Below are positions 1,618-7,695 of a stretch of 64,000 bases of DNA, piece after piece. This stretch comes from Ruegeria sp. Alg231-54 (lineage in GTDB: Bacteria > Pseudomonadota > Alphaproteobacteria > Rhodobacterales > Rhodobacteraceae), in the NCBI RefSeq assembly GCF_900143525.1, contig NZ_FREZ01000007.1, positions 124,001-188,000 on the forward strand, written 5' to 3'. How positions within the stretch are numbered: position 1 is the stretch's first letter; each line of letters starts with the position of its first letter. Made by a program: the position numbers and the translations under genes. Below the pieces are notes generated by a model. That model was not told the origin of the DNA. It saw only the letters and a program-made list of their open reading frames with translations, and did not search any database.

Positions 1618-1648
1618 TGTGATCACGGTTTTTTTAGGTGTGATCACA
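1618..1648. promoter_or_regulatory. Paired TGTGATCAC palindromes upstream of sucC
   Basis: Two 10-bp sites, TGTGATCACG at 1618-1627 and TGTGATCACA at 1639-1648, are separated by an 11-bp T-rich spacer, so their centres lie 21 bp (two helical turns) apart. The element begins 107 bp upstream of the sucC start codon. The same two sites with the same spacing occur upstream of sdhC at 7665-7695. This looks like a cooperative double operator for a dimeric regulator shared by TCA-cycle operons. The regulator is not identified from the sequence. Confidence 0.7.
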
Positions 1649-1715
1649 AAAGGCAATGAAGGTCACCCCTTTGATTCGTCGTCGGTGACGGCCTTTAGAA
1701 TAAAGAGAGAATTCA

Positions 1716-1727
1716 GCTAGCGCTAAA
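1716..1727. promoter_or_regulatory. TAGCGCTA palindrome (LacI-family-like operator)
   Basis: The sequence at 1717-1726 is CTAGCGCTAA, with a perfect 8-bp core TAGCGCTA at 1718-1725. Central-CG palindromes of this type are typical LacI-family operators. In Rhodobacter a LacI-family regulator of central carbon metabolism (CceR) is known; my memory of its exact motif is not firm enough to assign this site. It lies between mdh and sucC, upstream of the paired palindromes. Confidence 0.35.
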
Positions 1728-1814
1728 CCCAGCCGGTTTGCCGAGACGGTGGATTCAAACGTCTACATGGCAGCTGTGCCGGTGACATGTCGATTCAATG
1801 GCGCCGTAATCGTC

Positions 1815-1851
1815 CAAAGAAAAACCCGGCTCACCAATGGTGAGCCGGGTT
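1815..1851 (-). terminator. Rho-independent terminator of mdh
   Basis: A perfect 13-bp inverted repeat (1823-1835 with 1839-1851) closes a 3-nt loop. Read on the minus strand it is followed by a run of U residues (complement of the A-rich 1815-1824). It lies 22 bp beyond the mdh stop codon, a textbook intrinsic terminator that separates mdh from sucC transcription. Confidence 0.9.
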
Positions 1852-1873
1852 CTGAATTACCGCTGCAGAGGGA

Positions 1874-2836
1874 TCAGGCCAGCGAGCCGTCGATGCCCTT
1901 GCACGCTTCGATCAGGCCTTTGACGGCGTTGACCGAATTGTCGAACCCGGCTTGTTCGTCTTCGTTCAGCTTGATGTCGACGATCCGTTCGACACCACCG
2001 GCACCAATCACGGTGGGTACGCCCACATAAAGACCGTCTACGCCCAGCTCACCGCTGCAATATGCAGCGCACGGCAGAACGCGTTTCTGGTCTTTCAGAT
2101 AGGCTTCGGCCATTTCGATCGCCGAAGTTGCAGGCGCGTAGTAAGCTGAGCCAGTTTTCAGCAGGCCAACGATTTCGGCACCGCCATCACGGGTGCGCTG
2201 AACGATGGCGTCCAGCTTGTCCTGCGAGGTCCAGCCCATCTCGACCAGATCGGGCAGGGGGATGCCTGCTACGGTCGAATAACGCACCGACGGCACCATT
2301 GTGTCGCCGTGGCCGCCCAGAACAAACGCGGTGACATCGCGCATCGAGACGTTGAACTCTTCCGACAGGAAGTGTGCGAAACGTGCCGAGTCCAGAACGC
2401 CAGCCATGCCACAGACTTTGTTGTGCGGCAGGCCCGAGAATTCACGCAGAGCCCAGACCATCGCGTCCAGTGGGTTGGTGATGCAGATCACGAACGCGTC
2501 GGGCGCGTGGGCTGCAATGCCTTCGCCAACCGACTTCATGACTTTCAGGTTAATGCCCAGCAGGTCATCGCGGCTCATGCCGGGTTTGCGGGCGACCCCA
2601 GCGGTGACGATGCAGACGTCTGCGCCTGCGATGTCCGCATAGTCGCTGGTGCCGGACATGGCTGCGTCGAACCCTTCCGAAGGGCCTGATTCAGCGATGT
2701 CGAGCGCCTTGCCCTGCGGCAGCCCGTCTGCGATGTCGAACAGGACTACGTCACCCAGTTCTTTGACAGCTGCGAGGTGCGCAAGCGTGCCGCCGATGTT
2801 CCCAGCGCCGATAAGCGCAATCTTGGGTCTGGCCAT
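1874..2836 (-). CDS. mdh: Malate dehydrogenase (NAD, LDH-like type)
   Basis: A 320-residue protein of normal length for the LDH-like malate dehydrogenases of alphaproteobacteria. The NAD-binding loop GAGNIGG is at residues 10-16, the substrate-binding arginine segment is [11 protein letters not shown], and the catalytic histidine lies in GGHGDTMVP. The enzyme oxidises malate to oxaloacetate in the cytoplasm as the last TCA step. It precedes sucC-sucD on the same strand but ends in its own strong terminator. The start (ATG at 2836) fits the conserved [12 protein letters not shown] opening. Confidence 0.98.
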
Positions 2837-2996
2837 TTGGAAAATCTCCGGTCGGAATTGAAATCGCGGCTGTGCTAGTCGCTAAATGGCTTTCGCGCAA
2901 GTGTTCAGCGGCGCGGCATGCAACCGCATACCGTTTGCACTGCTTGGGTTGATTGCGCTAAACGGCCAAGGATACAGGCCGAAACCGGGGCGCTGC

Positions 2997-5860: not shown

Positions 5861-6888
5861 TGGCAAAAACCAATCCGGGCCGCTTTTTTGAGGACTATTC
5901 CATCGGTCAGGTGTTGCACCATGCCGTGCCACGCACGGTGACCGATGGTGAGCGGGCGCTGTACCATGCGCTCTATCCGGCGCGGCATGCGCTGTATTCC
6001 TCGGACGAGTTCGCCCGGAATTGTGGTCTGCCGCAAAGTCCCATCGATGACCTGGCGGCGTTTCATGTCGTGTTTGGCAAAACTGTCCCGGATATTTCGC
6101 TGAATGCCGTGGCTAATCTGGGCTATGCCGAAGGGCGCTGGCTTAAGCCGGTCTATCCCGGCGATACCTTGCGCTCGGAATCCGAGGTGATCGGTCTCAA
6201 ACAGAACTCGAATGGCAAGACCGGCGTTGTCTGGGTTCGCACGCGTGGCCTGAACCAACGCGATGAAGTCGTCATCGAATATGTGCGTTGGGTCATGGTT
6301 CGGAAATCGGATATGGATGCGCCCGCGCCCGAGGCTGTGGTGCCTGAACTGAAAAAGTCGCTGGACGTGAAGGATCTGATCGCGCCCGAGGGCCTTGATT
6401 TTACTCAGTACGATTTTGCTCAGGCAGGCGAAGTGCATCGCTGGGGCGATTATGAGATTGGCGAGAAAATTGACCACGTCGATGGCGTCACGGTCGAAGA
6501 GGCCGAGCATATGCTGGCCACTCGCCTGTGGCAGAACACCGCCAAGGTGCATTTCGATCTGACCTTCCGTCCCGAAGGGCGGCTGATCTATGGCGGTCAC
6601 GTGATTTCCATGGCGCGGACCCTGTCGTTCAACGGGTTGGCTAACGCACAGATGATCGTCGGCCTGAACGGTGGCGCACATGCCAATCCCTGCTTTGCGG
6701 GCGACACGATCAAGGCCTGGTCCGAAGTTCTGGATAAGGCGGAAACCGCCATTCCGGGTGTTGGTGCGGTGCGCCTGCGGCTGGTCGCCACCAAGGGCGG
6801 CGCGCCGTTTGAGTTGAAAAACGAAGACGGTCGGTATCTACCCAATGTCCTGCTTGATCTGGATTACTGGGCCCTGATGCCCATCTGA
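5860..6888 (+). CDS. mch: Mesaconyl-CoA (beta-methylmalyl-CoA) hydratase
   Basis: A 342-residue protein, matching the roughly 343-residue Rhodobacter Mch, and made of two MaoC-like hot-dog halves. The N-terminal half carries GRFFEDYSIGQVLHHAV; the C-terminal half opens near HRWGDYEIGEKIDHVDG. The enzyme hydrates mesaconyl-CoA to (2R,3S)-beta-methylmalyl-CoA in the ethylmalonyl-CoA pathway. The start at 5860 overlaps the stop of the DUF1737 gene by one base and gives the conserved MAKTNPGRFFEDY opening; an upstream in-frame start is not plausible. The neighbours mcl2, sdh, ecm and ccr support the assignment. Confidence 0.93.
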   Translation: MAKTNPGRFFEDYSIGQVLHHAVPRTVTDGERALYHALYPARHALYSSDEFARNCGLPQSPIDDLAAFHVVFGKTVPDISLNAVANLGYAEGRWLKPVYPGDTLRSESEVIGLKQNSNGKTGVVWVRTRGLNQRDEVVIEYVRWVMVRKSDMDAPAPEAVVPELKKSLDVKDLIAPEGLDFTQYDFAQAGEVHRWGDYEIGEKIDHVDGVTVEEAEHMLATRLWQNTAKVHFDLTFRPEGRLIYGGHVISMARTLSFNGLANAQMIVGLNGGAHANPCFAGDTIKAWSEVLDKAETAIPGVGAVRLRLVATKGGAPFELKNEDGRYLPNVLLDLDYWALMPI

Positions 6889-6945
6889 CACAAGTAGTGA
6901 CATTCATTTGATCGCAGCCAGCGCCAATCGTGTTAGGCTGTGGTC

Positions 6946-7608
6946 ATGACCTTGCTTCGCACAATAGCTGCCTGCGCCTGTCTGACGCCACCCGCTTATG
7001 CCTGCGATCTGGCATTGGCCCTGGCCGTAGATGTCTCGGGTTCGGTGGATTCGACCGAGTATCGAATTCAGATGGATGGCCTTGCTGCGGGGTTGCGCGA
7101 TCCAATTGTGTCCGAGGCGCTGGTGCGCGGGAAAGCCCGCGTGATGCTGGTGCAATGGACAGGGTCCTCTCGTCAGATGGTCACCGTCCCGTGGACACAT
7201 ATCGACAGTTTCGAGGCAATTGATCAGTTTGCTATAAAAGTGGCCAACGATCCAAGGGTCTGGCGCAACTTTTCCACCGCAATTGGCGAGGCGCTGGAAT
7301 CGACCATGTCCTATTTCGATACGGTGTCAGATTGCAAACGCCACCTGATCGATATCTCCGGCGATGGGGTATCGAACGAGGGGGTTGAACCATCGGACGT
7401 CCACAGAATTCTTCGGACTCGCGGTGTTACGGTGAACGCGATTGCAATCGAAGAAAGTGAACCGGATTTGACCGCGTATTTCTTTGAAAATGTGATCGTG
7501 GGCGAGGGGGCGTTTGTCGTCTCAGCCTCAGGGTTTGCTGATTACCCCGAGCGGATTCGTAAGAAGCTGCTGCGCGAAGTGACCCAACAAACAGCTGATT
7601 TGAAATAG
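6946..7608 (+). CDS. DUF1194 family secreted VWA-like protein
   Basis: A 220-residue protein from the ATG at 6946 (a GTG lies 6 bases upstream in frame). A short signal peptide ends near AYA-C. The first strand LALAVDVSGSVDSTEY carries a DxSxS metal-ion-dependent adhesion site, as in von Willebrand A domains. The later segments LIDISGDGVSNEG and VNAIAIEESEPDLTAYF fit DUF1194. The protein is probably periplasmic and binds divalent metal; no ligand is known. It lies between mch and sdhC, 57 bp after mch, and is followed by the 200-bp sdh regulatory region. Confidence 0.85.
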   Translation: MTLLRTIAACACLTPPAYACDLALALAVDVSGSVDSTEYRIQMDGLAAGLRDPIVSEALVRGKARVMLVQWTGSSRQMVTVPWTHIDSFEAIDQFAIKVANDPRVWRNFSTAIGEALESTMSYFDTVSDCKRHLIDISGDGVSNEGVEPSDVHRILRTRGVTVNAIAIEESEPDLTAYFFENVIVGEGAFVVSASGFADYPERIRKKLLREVTQQTADLK

Positions 7609-7632
7609 CCGCACAACAGAATCGAATCTGCA

Positions 7633-7642
7633 GGCGCTAACA
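7633..7642. promoter_or_regulatory. GCGCTAACA half-operator upstream of sdhC
   Basis: The sequence GGCGCTAACA resembles half of a TGTTAGCGCTAACA-type LacI-family palindrome. A better-conserved relative lies in the mdh-sucC intergenic region (1717-1726). Here only the right half is well preserved. Its centre is 34 bp upstream of the first TGTGATCAC site. Confidence 0.25.
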
Positions 7643-7664
7643 TCGTGATGGATGGAAAACATTT

Positions 7665-7695
7665 TGTGATCACGAGTTTATTTTGTGTGATCACA
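7665..7695. promoter_or_regulatory. Paired TGTGATCAC palindromes upstream of sdhC
   Basis: TGTGATCACG (7665-7674) and TGTGATCACA (7686-7695) are separated by an 11-bp A/T-rich spacer, giving 21-bp centre spacing. The element ends 113 bp before the sdhC ATG. It duplicates the arrangement at 1618-1648, which ends 107 bp before the sucC ATG. Identical half-sites, spacing and distance to the start codon argue for a shared regulator of the sdh and suc operons. Confidence 0.7.

Follow-up and report, generated by a model that had tools for sequence, protein, structure and literature searches.

What reads the identical paired palindrome that stands ahead of both sucC and sdhC in Ruegeria sp. Alg231-54? 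The two copies lie in a stretch of 64,000 nucleotides (contig NZ_FREZ01000007.1, positions 124,001 to 188,000 of the forward strand), the whole of which is referred to below as the window. A first-pass annotation of this DNA had drawn attention to the pair, and had ascribed the joint control of succinyl-CoA ligase and succinate dehydrogenase to one unassigned regulator. We think it likely that the elements are operators of a GntR/FCD transcription factor, paired dimers of which would activate sucCD-sucAB-lpd and sdhCDA, and a single dimer of which would repress the factor's own gene.

Paired operators in the window and the genome

The pair, TGTGATCACG-N11-TGTGATCACA, is present twice, each time with a centre spacing of 21 bp, at 107 bp from the ATG of sucC (minus strand, 1510) and 113 bp from that of sdhC (7809); reading of the sequence confirmed it as first described. 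The two copies are as follows.

1618..1648, minus strand: operator (paired palindrome) ahead of the sucC operon, in the mdh-sucC interval (sequence; equivalent position in relatives)
7665..7695, plus strand: operator (paired palindrome) ahead of the sdh genes, 113 bp from the sdhC ATG (sequence; equivalent position in relatives)

The random occurrence that had been named as possible counter-evidence was not seen, the exact pair being found twice in the 4.92-Mb genome and the reversed control pattern 0 times. Allowing up to three mismatches adds six matches, three of which were opened (one on contig C10, two on C34). All three fall within coding sequence (the transaldolase gene, a gene of the flagellum and one more open frame) and were discounted as chance matches. 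At up to two mismatches, single palindromes are not enriched in the window (29 observed, 27.6 expected). Four of these belong to the operators; 13 of the remaining 25 were checked and all 13 fall within open frames of at least 150 residues, so that for these the claim that no other intergenic region of the window carries the pair holds. The exact 10-mer TGTGATCACA is found at five sites in the genome, once at each of the sucC and sdhC operators, once at the promoter of a GntR gene, and twice within coding sequence.

Conservation of the operator pair

Of 149 genomes of the same family that were searched, 127 carry the pair when its centres are fixed 21 bp apart and no more than one mismatch is allowed. 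The matches listed represent 83 distinct places, which together with the two in the window make 85 that were typed by their downstream gene: sucC in 40, sdhC in 37, and fumC and sucA in one each, five being internal to coding sequence and one (G022:C77) too close to a contig end for typing. Conservation ahead of orthologous sucC and sdhC, which the first-pass annotation had proposed as a check, is thus borne out. The five coding-internal places, in transaldolase (G096, G115 and G139), a sucC paralogue (G001) and a TPR-like gene (G134), were put down to chance. The look-alike within transaldolase recurs, being found in the own genome (L044, G000:C10:174953) as well as in G115, G139 and G096 (L357, L359, L360), and is probably a coding coincidence.

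Two other placements deserve mention. In G042 a third exact paired operator (L022, G042:C16:228292) precedes fumC, the gene being named by eye, and would bring fumarase into the regulon there. In G136 the operator (L298, G136:C1:87752) follows mdh and is itself followed by sucA (by eye), and no sucC is found in the stretch fetched. Among class genomes outside the family the pair, sought in the same way, was found in just 2 of 380. One of these, G298, carries an exact pair (L255, G298:C189:992-1021) upstream of a gene for a distant GntR protein (29% identity), that gene being in divergent orientation to a TonB-receptor-like one; the DNA recognition may have been retained there by a related regulator. 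In the other, G321, none of the reference genes matched.

The candidate regulator

The palindrome TGTGATCACA reads GT-GATC-AC and so looks like a GntR site; operators of GntR/FCD proteins are typically palindromic and of the GT-N-AC (GT-N4-AC) type. A search of the genome for the GntR domain gives 31 matches with an E value of 0.001 or below, and two of these proteins were profiled over the family, the co-occurrence counts being made by hand. The candidate is a protein of 215 residues encoded outside the window (G000:C9:170555-171199, minus strand), in which PF00392 (48.7 bits) and PF07729 (64.4 bits) both score above their cut-offs. A match to it at E 1e-58 or better (at least 49% identity) is present in 124 of the 127 operator-positive genomes, vs 9 of the 22 operator-negative ones (Fisher p 1.4e-10). 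The first candidate to be profiled, a second GntR protein (G000:C9:115868-116635) that is PdhR/LldR-like by eye, was dropped for its weaker association with the operator.

The operator-negative genomes were examined by searching all 22 for sucC, which gave a match in 20, and reading the upstream sequence. Six regulator-positive genomes with a full sucC match (G009, G055, G066, G069, G087 and G133) all possess the pair at 20-bp centres; the family search missed them because its pattern fixed the 21-bp spacing and their spacer is one base shorter. G066 also carries a degenerate 21-bp pair ahead of sdhC. The other regulator-positive exceptions are G061 and G122, with no sucC match, and G147, with a distant sucC paralogue only. 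In the regulator-negative genomes that could be read at sucC the pair was found in 0 of 12, G109 showing one half-like site; in the thirteenth, G021, the sucC search gave a paralogue only.

Gene neighbourhood points the same way. In 18 of the 40 genomes for which both positions are available (hand count), the regulator and an operator are no more than 19 kb apart, and in G051, a genome like that of Rhodobacter sphaeroides, a GntR gene whose orthologue in the own genome is 75% identical stands two places after sdhB. The protein that reads the operators is very probably this 215-residue GntR-family regulator. Of the original proposal, a single regulator for sucC and sdhC appears supported by the conservation of the pair at both genes, whereas the description "unassigned" would no longer apply, since co-occurrence, the autoregulatory site described below and gene neighbourhood all indicate the same GntR/FCD protein.

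The metal or ligand residues of FCD domains are N/D-x3-H, H and H. Across 26 aligned regulators (those of the 25 of 30 loci that passed a motif filter, plus that of G051) the motif N-x3-H, one later His and a near-terminal Asp are invariant, so that the last metal or ligand position is apparently occupied by an invariant Asp instead of His. These residues suggest an acid-binding pocket; they do not name the ligand.

Predicted promoters and operator geometry

Promoters were predicted between each operator and the gene that follows it.

7751..7779, plus strand: predicted sdhC promoter, CGTGAC / 17-bp spacer / TAAAAC (sequence; GTGAC position in relatives)
1541..1571, minus strand: predicted sucC promoter region, TTTAAA ... 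TATAAC (sequence; T at +77/+78 in relatives)

GTGAC is found 87-90 bp from the operator start at 19 of 29 sdhC loci, and at sucC a T occurs at +77 in 29 of 37 loci and at +78 in 29 of 37. A roughly constant distance between operator and promoter is partly shown by these counts, the case being good for sdhC and weak for sucC. Taken at face value, the predicted starts would put the operators at about -88/-109 (sucC) and -95/-116 (sdhC). Each would thus be some 90 to 115 bp upstream of its predicted start, with the sdhC pair about one helical turn farther out. Palindromes 20 or 21 bp apart are separated by two turns, and two dimers would therefore share one face of the helix.

The promoter of the regulator gene

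A single palindrome precedes the regulator gene in 57 of the 71 genomes examined, and in 51 it overlaps the position at which the -10 element was placed. In the 30 loci nearest to the own protein it is found throughout (30/30, at most two mismatches), with 28 exact copies. A further 40 loci, comprising the 20 next in the list and 20 picked for divergence or operator proximity, yielded it in 27 (23 exact, four with one mismatch). The distance from the start of the tetranucleotide TTGA to the palindrome is exactly 17 bp in 28 of the 30 and in 23 of the 27, from which it follows that the -10 element would fall over the right half of the palindrome. A palindrome over the -10 is what would be expected of a protein that represses its own gene. 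In G051 (L127, L253) the regulator promoter keeps TTGACC and the palindrome is absent, so that autoregulation seems to have been lost there.

Proposed mechanism

Two dimers would bind on one side of the helix, one to each palindrome, and, from the upstream positions given above, would activate, not repress, the weak promoters of sucCD-sucAB-lpd and sdhCDA at the predicted start sites. The enzymes leading from 2-oxoglutarate to fumarate would then rise together, and a carboxylate of the tricarboxylic acid (TCA) cycle is the effector that we infer. At the regulator's own promoter a dimer on the single palindrome over the -10 would bring about self-repression.

A further reading, which we hold tentatively and as possible rather than probable, is that the number of palindromes acts as an instruction: two in phase, at an almost fixed distance from a weak promoter, would mean activation and one over a -10 would mean repression. 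The result would be a minimal three-promoter circuit that couples 2-oxoglutarate dehydrogenase to succinyl-CoA ligase and succinate dehydrogenase familywide, that is missing as a unit in some genomes, and that may sense the segment's own carboxylate.

Alternative explanations

The same GntR/FCD protein might bind the pair and repress sucC and sdhC, with a TCA carboxylate relieving the repression. Most known GntR proteins are repressors, many of the FadR type included, and at the regulator's own gene the palindrome is apparently placed for just that role. Both operators, however, lie well upstream of the predicted promoters and not across them, and the -35 of sdhC (CGTGAC) is weak, as for an activated promoter; repression from -90 would require looping or an overlooked promoter, the sucC promoter being poorly defined. 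We regard repression as unlikely. Rather less probable still is that another protein reads the pair, either the second GntR or a regulator outside the GntR family, and that the 215-residue protein is merely correlated with it. The second GntR is itself conserved, with matches of at least 57% identity in 112 of the 149 genomes, and is found in 104 of the 127 operator-positive genomes vs 8 of the 22 operator-negative ones. Its association is nonetheless the weaker of the two (Fisher p 2.9e-5 vs 1.4e-10), 23 of the 127 operator-positive genomes have no match to it of that quality, and it is the promoter of the 215-residue GntR that the palindrome marks. We give hardly any credence to the idea that no dedicated protein is involved and that the element is a feature of the nucleic acid itself, for instance a structured leader or a repeat. 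The element is palindromic and stands at two nearby sites, as such a feature might, but in the aligned loci, themselves selected at one mismatch or fewer, the spacer varies and the palindrome cores are constant. Furthermore, the element lies upstream of the predicted starts, recurs as a single copy at a third, unlinked promoter, and is missing where one protein is missing.

Activation by the 215-residue regulator is therefore the explanation that we prefer, and several observations weigh against it. The co-occurrence statistics ignore phylogeny, and no more than 20 candidates per genome were scored for this regulator (17 for the second GntR). Three operator-positive genomes lack a good match to the regulator: G019 (91% complete), G096 (77%) and G114, an assembly of 320 contigs with a stated completeness of 100%. 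The regulator and the operators stand on different contigs in the own genome. The GTGAC of sdhC lies elsewhere in 3 of the 29 loci (at 78 bp in two and 100 bp in one) and was not found in seven, and under a strict TTT[AG]A test the sucC element is at 76-77 in 10 of 37 loci, at 71 in one and absent from 26. Finally, 14 of the 71 regulator promoters are without the palindrome, that of G051 among them.

Genes at the operators

The genes adjoining the two operators are listed below.

317..1510, minus strand: sucC, succinyl-CoA ligase beta subunit (open frame)
1874..2836, minus strand: mdh, malate dehydrogenase, ending just upstream of the sucC operator (named by eye)
7809..8192, plus strand: sdhC (open frame)
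8204..8575, plus strand: sdhD (start read from translation)
8600..10408, plus strand: sdhA (open frame)
12528..13307, plus strand: sdhB (start read from translation)

To the left of the window the sucC operon runs on, on the same strand, as sucD, sucA, sucB and lpd (translations named by eye), and the two operators therefore head the genes for 2-oxoglutarate dehydrogenase, succinyl-CoA ligase and succinate dehydrogenase. The usual sdhCDAB order is split at 10482-12382 by two minus-strand open frames, one FkbM-type methyltransferase-like and one glycosyltransferase-like (by eye). Since these separate sdhB from sdhA, control of sdhB by the operator is uncertain in the window. Between the operators, at 4040-6888, are CoA-ester lyase-like and mesaconyl-CoA hydratase-like genes (by eye), which have no copy of the operator of their own.

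Comparison with known systems

AkgR of R. sphaeroides, reported along with CceR by Imam, Noguera and Donohue in mBio in 2015, is said to be a GntR-type protein that activates several TCA-cycle genes; its host belongs to the same bacterial family as the Ruegeria strain. Genome G051, the R. sphaeroides-like one, possesses both operators, in addition to the orthologous regulator gene close to sdhB; it differs from most of the genomes examined in the lack of a palindrome at the regulator promoter, and autorepression there would differ accordingly. The 215-residue GntR is apparently the orthologue of AkgR, and we take the locus number of the latter to be RSP_0981, with which the gene order in G051 is in keeping. 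The PufX of G051 is identical to what we presume to be the R. sphaeroides PufX sequence. Another number that we had associated with AkgR, RSP_0231, was dropped, there being no GntR-domain match within 200 kb of pufX in G051. Nor, with the photosynthesis cluster as the guide, did it fit in Luteovulum (Cereibacter) azotoformans, in which no GntR protein of the own genome found a match to the side of pufX where one was expected; the opposite side has two GntR-like genes, at about 20 kb from pufX.

The other likenesses are more remote. The closest solved relative is McbR/YncC of E. coli (PDB 4p9f), a distant one, which matches over residues 20-212 of the 215 at E 6.8e-19; McbR controls a biofilm-related gene and not the TCA cycle. 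PdhR of E. coli gives a weak match in the DNA-binding part, at 24 vs 330 bits, far under the NCBI family cut-off. PdhR is a GntR repressor of E. coli central metabolism (2-oxo acid and respiratory), and its operator differs. CceR of R. sphaeroides also acts on TCA genes; it is a LacI-family protein that regulates central carbon metabolism and responds to 6-phosphogluconate, and so belongs to a different protein family from the 215-residue GntR.

Significance

The Rhodobacteraceae are abundant marine heterotrophs and hosts for metabolic engineering, in which control of the TCA cycle is unlike that of the enterobacteria. The operators described here likely represent a further member of a known regulon. 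A strongly conserved operator whose presence and absence follow those of one regulator makes for a clean, small regulon, predictable from sequence for most genomes of the family that were examined. The system also lets the arrangement of sites be probed as a possible switch between the activator and repressor roles of one protein. If the regulator is AkgR, a regulon described from one species would be extended to the family, together with a picture of its operators and its autoregulation.

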